A model generated the notes under the pieces. It made no database searches and had not been told where the DNA came from. It was given only the letters and a program-made list of their open reading frames with translations. From contig NZ_PDBS01000001.1 in NCBI RefSeq assembly GCF_002572525.1, positions 248,001-312,000 of the forward strand: a DNA stretch of 64,000 bases. The letters run 5' to 3'. Shown here one piece after another: positions 31,060 to 60,026 of the stretch; the stretch's first letter is position 1, and every line of letters begins with the position of its first letter. The position numbers and the translations under genes were made by a program. The stretch is from Natrinema sp. CBA1119. GTDB taxonomy: Archaea; Halobacteriota; Halobacteria; Halobacteriales; Natrialbaceae.

Positions 31060-31156
31060 ACGCACAAATGCGAGTCTGGCAAGAAATCCATTTCCCTTAG
31101 AGGGTGTCATAGAACGGTTGGCACACCCAAGTTGCTGATTGATGGAGACAGCAGCC

Positions 31157-33406
31157 CTATTCAGTAACTGCTTCTACGCCGTGAATCTCGAACCTGGCCC
31201 CGTTCGTGGTACTATCCGTGACACGAATCTGCCAGTCGTGGGCTGCAACAATCTGTTTGACGATGCTCAATCCGAACCCAGTGCCATCCTCACTTGTTGA
31301 GTAGCCAGCTCTAAGGACATCTTCACGCTTGTCGGCCGGGATTCCTTGCCCATCGTCCTCAACGTAGAATCCATCATCGAGTGCACCGACCGTTACGGTG
31401 ACGTCTTCACCACCGTGGTCGATAGCGTTACGAATCAGATTCTCAAACAGCTGTTTGAGCCGACTTTTATCTGCCCGAACGGTGCGGTCGGTGTCGGTGA
31501 TAAGCGTGGCAGCACCCGTCTCAACGGTTGCCCAACACTCCTCTACCAGTGGATCGAGCGCGACCAGATCGAAATCCGTAACGGCGTCTCCCTCTCGTGC
31601 TAACGATAGGAGTTCATCTATCAGCGTCCGCATGCGCTCGTGGGCTTGTTCAATTGAGTCCAAATGTTCACTGTCGCACTCCGTCGCCGCCAGCTCCAAA
31701 CGCCCTTCGGCAACGGTGAGCGGATTCCGAAGATCGTGACTGACGATACTGGCGAACTCTTCGAGTCGGTCGTTTTGCTCGGTGAGTTCTCGCTCACGGG
31801 CACGGAGCTGCTCGGTTCGTTCTAACTGTTCAAGCGCTGTCGCCAGTCCGCCGGCCAGAATCTCACCCAGGAGTGCGTCCTGTTCGTCGAAGGTCTCTGG
31901 GGACGATGACCCGGCGAGCAAAACCCCGTATTTACCGAGTGGCAAGATAAGCTCGCTCCGAATCGGCGTGGCTGGATTATACCGGTCCGGATCCTCGTGA
32001 ACATCATCAACAGAGAGTGTCTCCCCGCGTTGATAAACCCGCCACGCAATACTGTCACCACCCGCAAATGTGGGTGGCTCGCCAATAAGATCGTATACGG
32101 CGTCGGTGGATGCCACCGGAACGAGCCCGTCGGCAACATCGTCGTACAGATGGATTGAATTCGCTTCTAATTCCAGAAGATCTCTCATCGTCTCCACACC
32201 GATCTCGGCGACCTCTTCCCGCGTGTCCGCACTCATCAACTCCTGGGTGACCCGATTCAACGCTTCGAGTTGCCGTTCACGGGTCTTCCACTCATCAACA
32301 TCGAGGTGAATGCCGACCGCACGGATTGGCTCACCGTCGTCATCTCGCTCAACGATTTTGCCGAGATCCCGAATCCACTTCCACTCACCATCAGCAGTTC
32401 GCATTCGGTGTTCGGTGTCGTAGTAGTCCGTTTGCTGCTGGCGATGAGCCTCAAGGGCAGCCGTCACGTCATCAAGATCGTCCGGATGAACCCGCGACTC
32501 CCATGTGTGGAGGTGTGGTTCGAGTTCGTCAAGCGTGTAGCCGAGCATCTCGGCCCACTGCTCGTTGAACTCGACTTCATCGGTCGTCATGTCCCAATCC
32601 CACACGCCGAGGTTCGCGCCTTCGATTGCGAGTTCGAGACGTTCCTTGAGCCTCTCGATTTCTTCAATCCGCTGCGTTCGCTCAGTGATGTCCCGCGAGA
32701 CGACCATAAATCGGTCACCATCTCCCACCGGGAGGCGAGTAAGGTGAACTTCGACCGGAAACCGTGTTCCGTCATGCGTCTCGAACTCCGTTTCGATTCG
32801 TTTCCGATCTCCAACGTCCATTCCATCCCAAATGGCCTGTAATTCGTCTGAGTCGATTTCCTGATCGATGTCCCAGACTTTCTGCCCGACAATCTCGTCT
32901 TTTGGTTGGTTGAACGCCTCGCAGAATTGCTGGTTGACATCAACGATAGTCCCATCAGTGGTATGAATATCGATCATATCAGGGGAGCTTTCGAAGAGGG
33001 CTTCGAGACGGGCTGTGGTCTGTTTGAGACGGTTCTCACGCTCTTTGGTTTCCGTAATGTCGCGCACACTCACGACGTATCCGCCAATCGCGGTCGCCGT
33101 TTGGTTACTCCCTCTGGTCTCAAGCCAGATCCATGAGTCATCCTTGTGCCGGTAGCGAAATTCATCGGTAACAACCTCATCGTCTTCAGCGTCGAGGATT
33201 TCAGCGAACGTCTCACGAACTTTCTGTTGATCGTCGGGATGGACGTGTTCGAATACCTGATTACCGACACGCTCAGCAGGCGGATACCCGGTAATACGCT
33301 GTACAGACGGGCTTTCGTACAGAATATCGCCTGACTCACCCACGATGAGAATCCCATTAGAGAGATGCCTGACGAGTTCCTGGTATTTCTCTTTCGGCAA
33401 CTCCAT
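31157..33406 (-). CDS. PAS-PAS-PAS-GAF sensor histidine kinase
   Basis: 749 aa with no membrane segment. Three PAS/PAC units cover about 5-385 (ILYESPSVQRITGYP, IVDVNQQFCEAFNQP and EFNEQWAEMLGYTLDE, each ending in a VVSxRDITE-like linker). A GAF domain covers about 395-535. A HisKA dimerisation helix carries the phosphoacceptor in SIVSHDLRNPLTVAEGRLEL. The HATPase has NLIRNAIDHGG (N box), VEDDGQGIP (G1) and GTGFGLSIVKQIV (G2). It phosphorylates a response regulator in a soluble signalling path; no receiver gene is adjacent. The family call is secure; the signal is unknown. Confidence 0.93.
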   Translation of the reverse strand: MELPKEKYQELVRHLSNGILIVGESGDILYESPSVQRITGYPPAERVGNQVFEHVHPDDQQKVRETFAEILDAEDDEVVTDEFRYRHKDDSWIWLETRGSNQTATAIGGYVVSVRDITETKERENRLKQTTARLEALFESSPDMIDIHTTDGTIVDVNQQFCEAFNQPKDEIVGQKVWDIDQEIDSDELQAIWDGMDVGDRKRIETEFETHDGTRFPVEVHLTRLPVGDGDRFMVVSRDITERTQRIEEIERLKERLELAIEGANLGVWDWDMTTDEVEFNEQWAEMLGYTLDELEPHLHTWESRVHPDDLDDVTAALEAHRQQQTDYYDTEHRMRTADGEWKWIRDLGKIVERDDDGEPIRAVGIHLDVDEWKTRERQLEALNRVTQELMSADTREEVAEIGVETMRDLLELEANSIHLYDDVADGLVPVASTDAVYDLIGEPPTFAGGDSIAWRVYQRGETLSVDDVHEDPDRYNPATPIRSELILPLGKYGVLLAGSSSPETFDEQDALLGEILAGGLATALEQLERTEQLRARERELTEQNDRLEEFASIVSHDLRNPLTVAEGRLELAATECDSEHLDSIEQAHERMRTLIDELLSLAREGDAVTDFDLVALDPLVEECWATVETGAATLITDTDRTVRADKSRLKQLFENLIRNAIDHGGEDVTVTVGALDDGFYVEDDGQGIPADKREDVLRAGYSTSEDGTGFGLSIVKQIVAAHDWQIRVTDSTTNGARFEIHGVEAVTE

Positions 33407-33645
33407 TATTGTAATCTCTTAATCACTAACCGGCAAAGAACCCTTGTATTCCATACGCAGTTCTATCTACCGGAATATTCAGCGAACAACGAGCGTTAGA
33501 AAACACTTGTGAATAGTTCTATGACACTCTTTTCCCTTATCCAAAAGGGGCTCATCTCCCAAGGACGATATTTACCGATTAACCCTCGCAAACGGGCCAG
33601 AACCAAGGATAGAATGCAGGGTATTCTAGAAAAACACAACATTAG

Positions 33646-48327: not shown

Positions 48328-50997
48328 ATGTCTGAACAATCTGGGTCATCACCCGAGACGTCTGAGCGGACGGAACTTCCGATTGAGCGAGGCTTCCCTA
48401 TTGAGCGCGTGAATGAGTTGGCCGAGCGAGAAGGGCGAGCGAAAATGTACTACCGCCCTATCTACACCATGCACAAATGGTGGGCCCGTCGTCTCGGGTG
48501 TGTCTTCCGAGCGATTTCACTCTACTCGCTCCTTGATGACCCAGATACAGTGGATGTGTTCGAGCCGGGCGACAATGGGGAGACGCTGGCGAGCTGGAAT
48601 GATGATGGCTCTGCCGAGTTAGATATTGCTTCCATTCTTGAACGGGTCGATATGGCGGACCCTGAGAGTCTTTGGCAGTTGTATCCAAAGGATGTCCGGG
48701 TTGAAGGTAAGAAAGTGCTCGATCCCTTCATGGGTGGTGGAACTTCACTGGTTGAAGCATCACGTTTCGGAGCAGAAGTGGTCGGGAATGATTTGAACCC
48801 TGTGGCTTGGTTCGTCACGAAGAAGGAGCTCGAAGCTGGCCAGACAGACGTAGATGAACTGGAAGACGCCTTCGAGAAAGTGAAGAAGGATGTCGCCGAG
48901 GAGGTCACCCAGTACTACAAAACGCCCTGTCCTAACGGCGACCACGACGCAGATGTGATGTACAACTTCTGGGTGAAGGAATTAGACTGTGTCTCCTGTA
49001 GCCACACTGTACCGCTGTTCAAGGACTACAGAGTGGCCAAGGGTCGTTATGAGAACGACGATAAGTACAACGTCCTCTGTCCGGATTGTGGGGCGGTTAC
49101 TTTAGTGGACGACTGGCAGTCTGAAAGCCTCTGCGATGCCTGTGGTCATAGTTTCATCCCGAAGAACGGGAATGTGTCGCGGGGAGGGAAGTACAACTGC
49201 CCTGACTGCGGTCAGAAGTACGCAATTACGGACGCCATCCAGGAACAGGGCCCACCAAATCTTCGTCTTTACGCGGTCGAGTATTACTGCGACCACTGCG
49301 AATCCGCCGGTGGGGAACGAAGTGAATATAAAGGGTACAAACGCGTCGAAAAGGCGGACATCGAACTCCTCAATGAGGCAATAGAGGAATGGGAGAGTAG
49401 TGATGACCTTCATAAGTACGTCCCCGACGAAAAAATCCCAGAAGGAGCAATTACTGCGTCCTCTGAGCTGGCTGGGAATGATGTCTTTGACCACGGATAC
49501 GAGTACTGGACTGATATGCAAAACGAGCGTCAGTTGCTCTCAATTGCGAAGATTATGCGGTCTATCGAAGATGTGGATCCGCCGTTACGAGACTACCTCC
49601 TCTTGGCTCTAACGGACTCCCTCATGTTCCAGAATATGTTCTGTATCTACAACCAACCTGCAAACAAGGTTGAGGGCGTCTTCCGGATGAACTCGTTCGT
49701 CCCGACCTCAGAGGCTATTGAGAACAATGTCTGGGGCGCTTCAGCAGGTCGAGGTACGTTCTCAAACTCTGTTGATAAAGTGATGAGCGGTGTTGAGTAT
49801 GGATCTTCTCCGACGGAGCGGTTTATTGAAGACGGGGAAACCCAGGAAACGGGAAAGTTCGCACAGTCAATTGGTGAGGACTTCTCTCTTCACCAAGGGG
49901 ATATGCGGAACCTCGACTTCGAGGATGAATTTGATGCAGTGATTACTGACCCGCCATACTACGACAACATCATTTACTCGGAGGTCTCCGACTACTTTTA
50001 CGTCTGGCAGAAGATTCTGCTTGAAGATGAATACCCTGGATTTGACCACGACCAGACACCGCGCGCCGAATCAATCGTAACTAACCCGTATCTGGACAAA
50101 ACAGTCGAGGACTTCGAAACCGAGATTGGGCAAGCCTTCGCTGTAATCCGACGAGCTCTAAAGGACGATGGGGTTCTGGCGTTCACCTATCACCACTCTG
50201 ACTCAGAGTCGTGGGGCGAATTGCTTGCATCGTTATGTGCTAACGGATTCGAGGTCACAGCGACGTATCCAATCAGTGCGGACTCTAATAAATTCATCAC
50301 GGGGGAGGCCGTGTCCTTCGATATTGCCGTCGTTGCTCGGCCTATCGATGAGACAGACCCGGCGTCGTGGAACTCCCTCCGCCGCGACATCTACCGTACG
50401 GCCCGACGGACCCGCAAGCAACTCGAAGAAAACCGTGACCTCTCTCGCGGCGACATCGGCGTGATGGAGATGGGTGCGTGTTTCCGCGAGTACTCCAAGC
50501 ACCACGGTAAGGTCCAGCGCGACGGAGAGATCATGTCCGCAAAGGAGGTCGTCCAGGAGATCTACGGCATCATCCAAGAAGCAAGCGACATCGGCGTCGA
50601 GGACGTGTTCATCGACCTGCTGGACACGCCGAATCCCTCGTTCGACGACGTCAACAAGCTCTGCCGCGGGACGAACGCCACACCCGAAGATCTCAAGGAG
50701 ACGCGCCTGTACAACCAGGACGACGGCTTCGAACTCGGCACTTGGGACAACGAGAAGCGCCAGGCGTACATCCAGGAGCGAGTTAACGGCGACGGTGGCG
50801 ACCACCTCTCGAACCTCGATAAGCTCCAGTTCCTGCGGTATCGCTACGAGAAGGGACAGGCGATCCAGAACTACGTCGAAAAGTGGGACGTCGATGACGA
50901 CCTGCGCGAACTCGCCGGTCGGCTCGCCGACGTGACCGGCGACGACACGTACACGCGCGTGCTCGGGGATCGGGACATCACGAGCTACGGCGAATAG
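48328..50997 (+). CDS. DUF1156-type adenine-specific DNA methylase, mosaic in composition
   Basis: 889 aa. The N-terminal DUF1156 part starts LPIERGFPIERVNELAEREG, then MHKWWARRLGCVFRA. SAM-binding KVLDPFMGGGTSLVEASRFG (about 131) and catalytic VITDPPYYDNIIYSEVSDYFY (about 540) define an N6-adenine methylase. Between them are several Cys pairs (LDCVSCSH, LCPDCG, LCDACGHSF, NCPDCGQ, YYCDHC) making zinc ribbons. The C-terminal 220 residues are of clearly higher GC than the rest, with a switch near 50330. Genes of this type pair with DUF499 ATPases in anti-phage sets. It is in the same direction as the DUF499 gene but 4 kb away because of inserted genes. Confidence 0.85.
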   Translation: MSEQSGSSPETSERTELPIERGFPIERVNELAEREGRAKMYYRPIYTMHKWWARRLGCVFRAISLYSLLDDPDTVDVFEPGDNGETLASWNDDGSAELDIASILERVDMADPESLWQLYPKDVRVEGKKVLDPFMGGGTSLVEASRFGAEVVGNDLNPVAWFVTKKELEAGQTDVDELEDAFEKVKKDVAEEVTQYYKTPCPNGDHDADVMYNFWVKELDCVSCSHTVPLFKDYRVAKGRYENDDKYNVLCPDCGAVTLVDDWQSESLCDACGHSFIPKNGNVSRGGKYNCPDCGQKYAITDAIQEQGPPNLRLYAVEYYCDHCESAGGERSEYKGYKRVEKADIELLNEAIEEWESSDDLHKYVPDEKIPEGAITASSELAGNDVFDHGYEYWTDMQNERQLLSIAKIMRSIEDVDPPLRDYLLLALTDSLMFQNMFCIYNQPANKVEGVFRMNSFVPTSEAIENNVWGASAGRGTFSNSVDKVMSGVEYGSSPTERFIEDGETQETGKFAQSIGEDFSLHQGDMRNLDFEDEFDAVITDPPYYDNIIYSEVSDYFYVWQKILLEDEYPGFDHDQTPRAESIVTNPYLDKTVEDFETEIGQAFAVIRRALKDDGVLAFTYHHSDSESWGELLASLCANGFEVTATYPISADSNKFITGEAVSFDIAVVARPIDETDPASWNSLRRDIYRTARRTRKQLEENRDLSRGDIGVMEMGACFREYSKHHGKVQRDGEIMSAKEVVQEIYGIIQEASDIGVEDVFIDLLDTPNPSFDDVNKLCRGTNATPEDLKETRLYNQDDGFELGTWDNEKRQAYIQERVNGDGGDHLSNLDKLQFLRYRYEKGQAIQNYVEKWDVDDDLRELAGRLADVTGDDTYTRVLGDRDITSYGE

Positions 50998-56967: not shown

Positions 56968-56976
56968 TATATAAAA
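56968..56976 (-). promoter_or_regulatory. TATA box of the mcrBC unit
   Basis: TTTTATATA on the minus strand is centred 28 bp before the mcrB ATG. This is the spacing of a leaderless haloarchaeal promoter and supports the start at 56944. The GC-rich surroundings make it stand out. Confidence 0.7.
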
Positions 56977-57038
56977 TCCCGTTCAAGAGATAAGCAGATT
57001 CCTATTGGTCTGCTGGTGAGGATGCTATAGAACAGTTT

Positions 57039-57559
57039 GGCTCTGTTGAAATCCTATTGGTCGGACACTATATGCGGTGAAACAGCCGGTGAGTGGGTGT
57101 GCCTACCGAACAGTTAGTACACCCGCAGGGATGGTGGACTGCGTGTCACAAGCGCCGTCAGAGGCTCTGTTATGCTGGGACTTCGGAACAGCAAGATTGC
57201 GACTATACGGCGAAGTAGGCACCGACGCCGAGGATGAACAAGCCAACTGCAATGGCAGGGACACGGATTGATTGTTCTGAGGACGGCGTGGAGGTGGACT
57301 CACGGAAGAAAGAAACTCCACCAAGAGCGAGAAATACGACACTCAGGAATGCGGAGAACAGTGCGACAGGCTCGAGTGATGGATCAAGCGCGAATCGAAT
57401 GAGTCCGATTGTGCCAACGAAGGCGAAACTGATTCCCGCGATATCGGTTCTATCCATACTATGGGAATCATTTACGCTGGAGAAAAAACGTTTGGTTCAC
57501 TCTGTTTCACTTACCTATCATCCCCAAATCTGTCACGGGTCAAGGACTTCAACAGAGCC
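57039..57559. mobile_element. 521-bp non-autonomous IS6-like transposon with a cargo gene
   Basis: The left end GGCTCTGTTGAAATCCT and the right end (as its complement GGCTCTGTTGAAGTCCT) are inverted repeats with one mismatch in 17. The element is flanked on each side by the 8-bp direct repeat AACAGTTT (57031-57038 and 57560-57567), an exact target-site duplication. The end sequence and the 8-bp duplication are those of the IS6 family. No transposase gene is inside; the only gene is a membrane-protein ORF (57203-57457). It must have been mobilised by a transposase elsewhere. Confidence 0.9.
57203..57457 (-). CDS. Small membrane protein carried by the IS6-like element
   Basis: 84 aa with three hydrophobic segments (IAGISFAFVGTIGLIRFAL, VALFSAFLSVVFLALGGVSFF and VPAIAVGLFILGVGAYFAV) and short polar loops. 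It has no charged catalytic motif. It lies wholly inside the transposon, reading opposite to the left end. It could be cargo that benefits the host or element, for example a small membrane-active protein, or an orphan gene captured between two ends. No family recognised. Confidence 0.65.
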   Translation of the reverse strand: MDRTDIAGISFAFVGTIGLIRFALDPSLEPVALFSAFLSVVFLALGGVSFFRESTSTPSSEQSIRVPAIAVGLFILGVGAYFAV

Positions 57560-57761
57560 AACAGTTTGTATACCTTGTTCTGGTGACCTCGGGAAGCGAT
57601 AAGTACAGACCTAGGACTGACCGTACCCGAAGATTGGGTGGACGAAGCAGAGCATAAGACTCTCGGTGAGTTCTGATTTCTGCGTGATTCGGTGATAGAA
57701 CGCAGACCCCGGTACGTTTGTGGAGTGGTTTTATATAGCATGTCACCCAATAAGTAGGAAA

Positions 57762-58763
57762 ATGGGTGCTGGCGAGAGTAGCGAAACCATCCCAAGGTCT
57801 CTGGAAACCGTCCAGGAACGCACGCAGTGGATTCGAGACCGAGAAATAGCCGACACGGCGCTCAGAGACTTCCTCCGAAACCACGACAAAGAACACCCCA
57901 ACGGAGATCGAGATCTTGAGGAGCACGTGGCCAAAGTCCTCAATGAGGTTGAATTCGACGACTTCCGGAAGCAATTCCGGTTCGGAGGGAAACAAAGCCT
58001 GAACTTCTTCGTCTTGACAGGGATCTCCGACGAATTCGACGACATCCCAGCGAGTATCGTCAGCGAATTCCCGCGAGCCGAAGAAGTTCAAGACCAGAAA
58101 GGCGAACCGTTCCTTGTCGATACCGAAGAATTCGACAACAGACTGTATGTCATCCTTGGCCGGTACGTGTCGATGAAGACAGTCGATCCATCTACCGGTA
58201 AGCCACAGCGCGACTTGAAACCAGATGAGTGCGTGGCCGTCATCAACAAAGACACTGACTTAGTACACGTCCGAACGGCTGAGGTTCCGTTGGCCCGACG
58301 GATTTGTCGGAAGATCGCGTCCTCGGTTGGGATGGATTACAATAATGAGGACGTGTTCTACAAACCGTCCTTCGATCAGGCGTTCGTTGACGAGTTCAGC
58401 GACCAGATTGAGAAGTACGTGAACCTGAACGTTGTTGTGAACGAAGGCGATGGTCGGACAGCAAGTTCAGTCCGGTATACCTCGAAGAAAGACGAAAGCG
58501 GAGATTACATGAACTTGCTTGAGGACGACCAAGTACAGCAAGAGCTTAACGAAGAAGATGGTGAGATATCGAAGGGGTACGTCAAGCTCAATGACGGCGA
58601 CTTCGCGCTGTACCTGAATCGACCCCAAAGCAAAATTTGGTTCAGGAGCTACGAACGGGAAGGGCGACTCAACGAGATTGAGGAACTCATCAATGATGTT
58701 CTCAGAGAAAGTGGAGGATATCCCCAACAAAAACTTCAGGGATTTGAAAACATCCCTGAGTGA
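57762..58763 (+). CDS. Unknown 333-aa protein, first gene of a putative two-gene defence module (possibly KwaB/DUF4868-like)
   Basis: A TTTTATATA box at 57729-57737 sits about 25-33 bp before the ATG at 57762, supporting this start. The protein is acidic with a helical first quarter (TALRDFLRNHDKEHPNGDRDL), then a mixed alpha/beta middle with LYVILGRYVSMKTVDP and DTDLVHVRTAEVPLARRICRK. It ends with GDFALYLNRPQSKIWFRSYE, followed by a helix. The pattern has some resemblance to DUF4868/KwaB-like proteins of the Kiwa system, but I cannot confirm this by eye and no kwaA partner is adjacent. Its 3' end overlaps the next gene by about 70 bp in another frame. Confidence 0.55.
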   Translation: MGAGESSETIPRSLETVQERTQWIRDREIADTALRDFLRNHDKEHPNGDRDLEEHVAKVLNEVEFDDFRKQFRFGGKQSLNFFVLTGISDEFDDIPASIVSEFPRAEEVQDQKGEPFLVDTEEFDNRLYVILGRYVSMKTVDPSTGKPQRDLKPDECVAVINKDTDLVHVRTAEVPLARRICRKIASSVGMDYNNEDVFYKPSFDQAFVDEFSDQIEKYVNLNVVVNEGDGRTASSVRYTSKKDESGDYMNLLEDDQVQQELNEEDGEISKGYVKLNDGDFALYLNRPQSKIWFRSYEREGRLNEIEELINDVLRESGGYPQQKLQGFENIPE

Positions 58764-59582
58764 GCTTCAGACCGAGCAAAATCGATTCACTCGGTCGGGC
58801 TTAGCGAAGCGTTCGGGGGTCGATGAGTCACAAGTTCTTGTGTTCCTCAGTGAGTTGTGCGATGAAGGGGTGGTTGCGGCGAAGCTGAAGGTTCGGTGCC
58901 CGAACTGTCACCAAGAGCACGGGACATATGCCTCTCGTAGTGATGTGCCGAGTGGACCAATACATTGCTTCTGTGGTGAGGAGTTCAATCCGAGCGAGAA
59001 AACGAATTGGTCGGTGGTTTACGAGTTCGTGGAGGACGTCGATTTTTTTCTGACCTCAAACTGGAGTTCGAGACCTTCGTAGATTCAGCGACGACCTTGA
59101 GTGCAGAGTATTTCCAGACGAAGTTCGAAGAGCTAGAGAATATCGACGATAGTGCAACTAGGGGCCGGTATTTCGACTACTTCGTTGGTCTGTTGTTCAA
59201 CCAGCTTCCCGATGTTAACGTGGTGATTGGTCGGGAAATAGCGACAGGGGAGATTGATGTTTTTGTGGCGTGTTTAGACGCTCCGGATTGGCTGCACCGA
59301 CTAGTGGGAGACGCGACGCTATTGGAGAACAAGTGGCGTGAGAAGCCTACCGGGACAGATGATATTAGCGTGTTTCACGATAAGGTCACAATGGCAACTG
59401 CTTCGTGCAAAGTGTGTTATTTCGTCAGTATGAGCGGGTTCACGTCGGAGCGAAATATTGGTGCAGAGCAGTTGATGCAGTCAAAGACTGATCCGAAGAT
59501 GGTAGGATGGGACCGAGAGGATGTAAAGGAGATGGTTCGTGAGGGGACGCCGGAGTCGTTGTTGCGGTCACACGTTATGTAG
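58693..59582 (+). pseudogene. Winged-helix/zinc-ribbon/PD-(D/E)XK nuclease gene split by a frameshift at a T run
   Basis: The first fragment (ATG 58693 or 58696) starts with helices, a winged helix (RFTRSGLAKRSGVDESQVLVFLSEL) and a zinc ribbon (VRCPNCHQEHG...IHCFCGEEF), then VVYEFVEDVDFF. At a run of seven T (59043-59049) the frame changes. The second fragment goes on SDLKLEFETFVDSATTLS and carries RGRYFDYFVGLLFNQLP with GEIDVFVACLD and LLENKWREKP, the D...E-x-K pattern of a PD-(D/E)XK nuclease. One more T restores a single frame of about 297 codons. It overlaps the preceding gene, so they act together. This could be inactivated, a read error, or programmed frameshifting. Confidence 0.7.
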
Positions 59583-59646
59583 CGAGGATTCACCGTGCCA
59601 TTCGCGGAAGAACTCCGCTCGGTGCGGTGATCGGATAGGTTACTTG

Positions 59647-59658
59647 GGCTCTGTTGAA
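59647..59658 (+). repeat. Solitary IS6-like end
   Basis: GGCTCTGTTGAA is identical over 12 bp to the ends of the 57039-57559 element and is followed by ACCTTAAATAG. No matching inverted end was found nearby, so it is probably the remnant of a deleted or degraded insertion. Confidence 0.55.
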
Positions 59659-59782
59659 ACCTTAAATAGCTAATAGGTTCTGCCTTTCAACTGCTAAGTG
59701 TAGGGTTTCTATACGGTGTTCAGTTCAACTATACGTGTTATTGAAGCCTCGCTTATAATAATCGGGCCCACTATTCGTCCGT

Positions 59783-59893
59783 ATGGACTGGGCTTTCAGA
59801 ATTCGAAAAGACGTCCCGTCTTGGGTAATGAAACTCGTACTAGTTGGTTCCATCCTGCTAATCGCTAGTCTCCAGTACTTTGATATCATCTAA
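59783..59893 (+). CDS. 36-aa small single-span membrane protein
   Basis: ATG 59783 opens MDWAFRIRKDVPSWVMK and is followed by one hydrophobic stretch (LVLVGSILLIASLQYF). A TATA-like CTTATAATAATCG at 59752-59764 is 20-30 bp before the start, a good leaderless context. Charged N-terminal residues suggest the N-terminus stays inside. Small hydrophobic proteins of this kind can be toxins or small membrane regulators, but no antitoxin RNA was recognised. It may also be part of a degraded IS. Confidence 0.45.
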   Translation: MDWAFRIRKDVPSWVMKLVLVGSILLIASLQYFDII

Positions 59894-60026
59894 ATGCGCG
59901 TGAATTCCCACGTTTGACACCGATAGGTGGGCAGACCTACTTATCGACGTGTTCACCGTAGAGCTAGGTGAACTCAAGGCCGTGTGAAACGTTCCATGAC
60001 ACCCTCCCGAAGGTGCTTATATCCAG

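Follow-up and report, generated by a model that had tools for sequence, protein, structure and literature searches.

Structure and insertion site of the 521-bp element

The window analysed here is a 64,000-nucleotide stretch of the 4.09-Mb chromosome of Natrinema sp. CBA1119 (NZ_PDBS01000001.1, positions 248,001 to 312,000), a congener of Natrinema ejinorense and Natrinema sp. DC36. Upstream of mcrB, the window contains a 521-bp element (57039–57559) with inverted ends that is flanked on both sides by exact copies of AACAGTTT (57031–57038 and 57560–57567), an 8-bp target-site duplication. The 12-bp ends GGCTCTGTTGAA are exact at 57039 on the plus strand and at 57559 on the minus strand. With one mismatch allowed, the inverted repeat is 17 bp long, giving GGCTCTGTTGAAATCCT on the left (57039–57055, plus strand), which is of the transposase-distal type (IRR), and GGCTCTGTTGAAGTCCT on the right (57543–57559, minus strand; 16/17 identical to the left repeat), which is of the transposase-proximal type (IRL). 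Between the ends lies a gene for a small membrane protein of 84 aa (57203–57457, minus strand). An earlier note had described the locus as a non-autonomous mini-transposon with a cargo gene and an 8-bp duplication, and the exact ends, the exact flanks and the 84-aa open reading frame support that description. No similarity to a transposase was found within the 521 bp; hence, the element is a derivative and not an IS.

Exact copies of the 12-mer GGCTCTGTTGAA number 15 in the 5.06-Mb genome, as compared with 0 for a reversed control, and when ends were paired in related loci, 10 strict pairs were obtained with the real end versus 0 with seven scrambled or reversed ends. Thus, the ends of the element do not arise by chance. 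A lone GGCTCTGTTGAA end lies at 59647–59658 and has no partner within the window. A search for further copies, which the earlier note had proposed, found the full-length element once in its own genome. Among 391 other genomes of the order there was no full-length match, and only the left ~65 bp matched elsewhere. The insertion may be recent, as suggested previously, to judge from the intact duplication.

The sequence interrupted by the insertion is the outer end of another type of IS/MITE with GAGGGTGTCATAGAAC ends. Its left piece (GAGGATGCTATAG..) is found at 57018–57030 and its right piece at 57568–57611 (both plus strand), and the rejoined end measures ~62 bp. This block is unbroken and has unrelated flanks in two other genomes (G016 and G020), with a single AACAGTTT in G016 and AACTGTTC in G020. 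The empty site that was to be looked for in relatives therefore exists as an unoccupied target with one copy of AACAGTTT; however, since the block is the end of a dispersed IS/MITE, both sites are paralogous, and they were rejected as the orthologous empty locus. DL31, which gave the closest match to the region upstream of mcrB, was likewise rejected for this comparison, as the intergenic region is not preserved. Another same-ended element in G004 (L048/L309, contig C86, about position 50469) is inserted 2 bp away in the same type of 62-bp end, which suggests that such an IS/MITE end is a preferred target.

The insertion point lies upstream of mcrB, ~86 nt from its start codon. A TATA-like motif that would belong to the mcrB promoter, recognised by eye at 56969–56978 on the minus strand, appears intact after the insertion, and no consequence for mcrBC can be deduced. 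On the other side, none of the two to three plus-strand ORFs (57720–59582) scored above cut-off against Pfam, NCBIfam or PADLOC. The previous placement of the element between two defence clusters is therefore correct on the mcrBC side only. The same ORFs are bracketed by ends of the GAGGGTGTCATAGAAC type at 57018–60006, which are not accompanied by a duplication (5/8), and this segment is possibly a third, older cassette whose end received the 521-bp element. Elsewhere in the window, a second transposase-less element of 2432 bp (31100–33531) has GAGGGTGTCATAGAAC and, inverted, AAGAGTGTCATAGAAC at its ends and an exact 8-bp duplication, TTCCCTTA. It carries one gene, for a 749-aa PAS/GAF sensor histidine kinase, and the other 28 genomes of the genus contain no full-length match to it, only partial matches of 66–68%.

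Ends shared with IS5-family elements and the varied cargo of the group

The same ends, in a 17/17 inverted repeat, and an exact 8-bp duplication are found in a 1254-bp IS of N. ejinorense (G010). Its transposase, of 273 aa, scored 207.8 bits against the NCBIfam IS5 model NF033579 (cut-off 140). Named relatives of this transposase in annotated plasmids are those of ISHla2 (81%) and ISHxa2 (80%). The 521-bp element thus has the ends of IS5-transposase elements together with an 8-bp duplication, and no IS5 transposase of its own. Two intact cognate transposases of 273 aa are encoded elsewhere in the same genome, on contigs C2 and C8, and are respectively 90% and 79% identical to the reference. 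The transposase may belong to the ISH1 subgroup of IS5 as defined by ISfinder, an assignment to be used as a lead only.

All 80 loci returned by a search with the N. ejinorense transposase are haloarchaeal, and 29 of them could be delimited by both ends and an 8-bp duplication (identical copies in 28, 7/8 in one); the elements are 1176–2808 bp long, and their transposases share 79–100% identity with the query across genera. Nearly every clean element includes at least one further ORF between the transposase stop codon and the far end, and these ORFs are mostly unrelated to one another. Products identified using Pfam are an O-methyltransferase, a TehB-like methyltransferase, a SnoaL-like protein, a RibD C-terminal domain, DUF1801, an alpha/beta hydrolase beside an HTH_10 regulator, a hexapeptide acetyltransferase and a PLP-dependent enzyme; other cargo consists of small membrane proteins or is lipoprotein-like. 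In ISHxa2 from Halopiger xanaduensis (2490 bp, exact 8-bp duplication), the transposase gene is followed by two more, which encode a 236-aa protein and an RDD-family protein, and a few elements contain a nested second transposon (e.g. L135 and L158). A cargo gene, which had been considered unusual in the earlier note, is therefore the rule in the group that shares these ends. The methyltransferase cargo is common to elements of Halostella, Halorussus and G402; hence, cargo also moves with the element between genera. Many autonomous relatives (L115–L194) have perfect ends and non-matching 8-bp flanks, a pattern that recombination between ends of different insertions, or their joint use on either side of a host gene, could explain.

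The transposase-distal end is conserved over ~65 bp across 41 distinct elements, and the sequence beyond is unrelated. The left end of the 521-bp element aligns with it along this length, and the corresponding subterminal region (57039–57105, plus strand) is common to the IRR of IS5-group elements and of other transposase-less cassettes; over 67 bp it is 88% identical to that of a 586-bp cassette in G286. The right end matches the transposase-side end of the group and departs from the autonomous elements beyond the first 17 bp. Its IRL-type sequence (57530–57559, minus strand) shares 26/30 positions with the IRL end of the same 586-bp cassette (L286). These matches on both sides indicate that the 521-bp element is a transposase-less version that has both recognised ends.

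Further transposase-less elements were sought with the 65-bp end in 125 genomes of the family, and the end was present in 51 of them. When ends no more than ~3 kb apart were paired, 15 elements had a duplication matching at 7/8 positions or better; scrambled ends gave 0–2 pairs under the loose rule, and the strict rule yielded the 10 versus 0 given above. Exact duplications flank the 586-bp cassette, which encodes an Amphi-Trp protein, and a 2718-bp element with an acyltransferase gene and a second ORF. In a further set, they flank elements of 752 bp (lipoprotein-like ORF) and 1844 bp, the latter coding for an HTH-like protein and containing a nested IS6-like piece. Duplications of 7/8 were found for elements of 651 bp (pyridoxamine oxidase), 1182 bp (DUF7537) and 1476 bp (PAS), and for one of 855 bp that has a MOSC protein gene together with transposase remnants. 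The 521-bp element resembles the 586-bp cassette most closely at both ends, and the cargo of that cassette is entirely different.

Origin of the 84-aa protein gene

Two hydrophobic segments are clear in the 84-aa protein and a third is weaker; they would place it in the membrane. Searches against Pfam, NCBIfam and PADLOC returned nothing above cut-off. Full-length relatives with 34–40% identity are encoded in three genomes of another family (G128, G060 and G033), found in a sample of the order, and the first two and the last residues are conserved between the 84-aa protein and these relatives. The chromosomal relatives adjoin serS, the seryl-tRNA synthetase gene, which was recognised from sequence, and no IS5-type ends were found near them. 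No homologues were detected in plasmids, viral contigs or genome contigs. A profile built from the four sequences had matches in 224 genomes; beyond the four known members these are weak (E about 1e-5 or poorer) and mostly lie inside much longer frames, and they were left out of the cargo analysis. The presence of full-length relatives beside serS on other haloarchaeal chromosomes indicates that the 84-aa ORF is a real gene, and the gene was probably captured by the cassette. A T-rich stretch 26–31 nt before its start codon, read by eye, could be a candidate promoter for a leaderless transcript, and the cargo may thus be expressed from a promoter of its own.

It is unlikely that the 521-bp element is a plain decayed IS or MITE whose 84-aa ORF has arisen fortuitously. 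Stretches of 500 bp in haloarchaeal DNA do contain fortuitous short ORFs, overlapping ones are present here, and the lack of a Pfam or PADLOC match would fit such an origin; however, a chance frame would not be expected to have full-length relatives in three genomes of another family, with both termini conserved and at a fixed place by serS, and clearly real genes are carried by other elements of the IS5 group.

That the protein serves the IS group as an accessory factor in transposition or immunity, and is not a passenger, is very improbable. This explanation draws on the small membrane proteins encoded in the same place in several autonomous relatives, for example those from N. ejinorense (71 aa) and Halogranum (90 aa), and in an element of the same genome (122 aa). 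However, the small membrane proteins of different elements are dissimilar to one another, the same place elsewhere holds genes for methyltransferases, acyltransferases, PLP enzymes and regulators, and the chromosomal relatives of the 84-aa protein lack such ends nearby. Since the cargo differs between elements, the 84-aa ORF was rejected as a standard accessory gene of the group.

Proposed mobilisation and relation to known systems

The ends had been called IS6-like in the earlier note. The IS6 transposase family (PF13610) has 21 matches in the genome, and two copies with resolvable ends are ~745 bp long and end in GGCACTGTCTAGTT, one of them with an exact 8-bp duplication. No GGCTCTGTTGAA end lies within 1.5 kb of the other IS6-type loci, except at one decayed copy beside an IS5-type end; an IS6 transposase with these ends, which the earlier note had recommended searching for, was thus not found in this genome. 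Although IS6-type transposases are numerous here and an 8-bp duplication fits IS6 too (PMC7986276), recognition of the 521-bp element by an IS6 (IS26/ISH14-like) transposase can practically be dismissed, and IS6 membership was rejected, because the resolved IS6 copies end in GGCACTGTCTAGTT, no IS6-type locus of the genome has GGCTCTGTTGAA ends around its transposase, and GGCTCTGTTGAA-type ends consistently bracket IS5 transposases.

The 521-bp element is best explained, with a probability of roughly 0.87, as a mobile insertion cassette (MIC), i.e. a transposase-less relative of the haloarchaeal passenger-carrying IS5-family elements (ISHla2/ISHxa2-like) that is moved in trans. It combines IS-type inverted ends, a target duplication and the absence of a transposase with a gene unrelated to transposition. 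The cassette would have kept the sequences that the transposase needs, namely the 17-bp inverted repeat with ~65 bp on the transposase-distal side and ~30 bp at the other end, and the single membrane-protein gene would fill the space between them in place of the missing transposase gene. A cognate IS5-family transposase produced from a complete element elsewhere in the genome would recognise both ends and move the cassette in trans from a donor site, as it would its own element. Its insertion upstream of mcrB, within the terminal block of another IS/MITE, would then have generated the 8-bp duplication. The cassette would gain spread by this route, and the membrane-protein gene would travel along.

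Several observations count against the MIC assignment. No second copy is present in the same or related genomes, the right end diverges from the usual transposase-side end past its first 17 bp, and the unoccupied targets are dispersed-repeat copies and not the orthologous locus. In addition, the IS that bears one of the two intact cognate transposases in this genome has no matching duplication.

A close parallel is provided by the mobile insertion cassettes of the IS231-MIC231 group, which belong to the IS4 family and were described in Bacillus cereus (PMC3913671, PMC1196294). As in the 521-bp element, the inverted ends of an IS enclose an unrelated gene that replaces the transposase gene, and the cargo is modular. 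However, MIC231 depends on an IS4 transposase, occurs in bacteria and has other ends and other cargo; mobilisation in trans has been demonstrated for MIC231, and we infer it for the 521-bp element. ISHla2 and ISHxa2 are haloarchaeal IS5-family elements with the same ends that, unlike the 521-bp element, encode a transposase.

ISH2 of Halobacterium and HqIRS32 of Haloquadratum (520–531 bp) have one short ORF and are moved in trans (PMC10264941, PMC3119063). ISH2 resembles the 521-bp element in its similar size, single short ORF and lack of a transposase, and is moved by an unrelated full IS, ISH8. However, ISH2 has a 10-bp duplication (PMC10264941) and ISH8-type ends, whereas the duplication here is 8 bp and the ends are of the IS5/ISHla2 type. 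An ISH2-type MITE was therefore rejected on the length of the duplication.

Transporter ISs (tIS) with passenger genes are also known (PMC7986276, PMC3129680), and their description fits the autonomous IS5-group relatives; the 521-bp element differs in that it lacks a transposase. A role in virus exclusion has been proposed for a passenger gene of a haloarchaeal transposon (PMC10544981).

Given that MICs and passenger-carrying ISs are already known in bacteria, it is the extent of cargo variation in the haloarchaeal IS5 group that is of interest. No description of this diversity was found in a search of the open-access literature. A tentative and rather doubtful extension is that the group serves haloarchaea as a general system for capturing and dispersing genes, in which one transposase and two constant ends accept almost any gene, new cargo is often acquired, and transposase-less cassettes such as the 521-bp element spread it in trans. 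If so, the IS5 group would be a functional counterpart of bacterial cassette systems. The observed pattern, in which closely similar transposases are accompanied by mostly unrelated passengers and transposase-less cassettes add others, provides a concrete and testable route for the transfer of single genes, for instance those for regulators, enzymes or surface proteins, from one archaeal genome to another. Passengers in the haloarchaeal IS5 group are usually annotated just as neighbours of a transposase.
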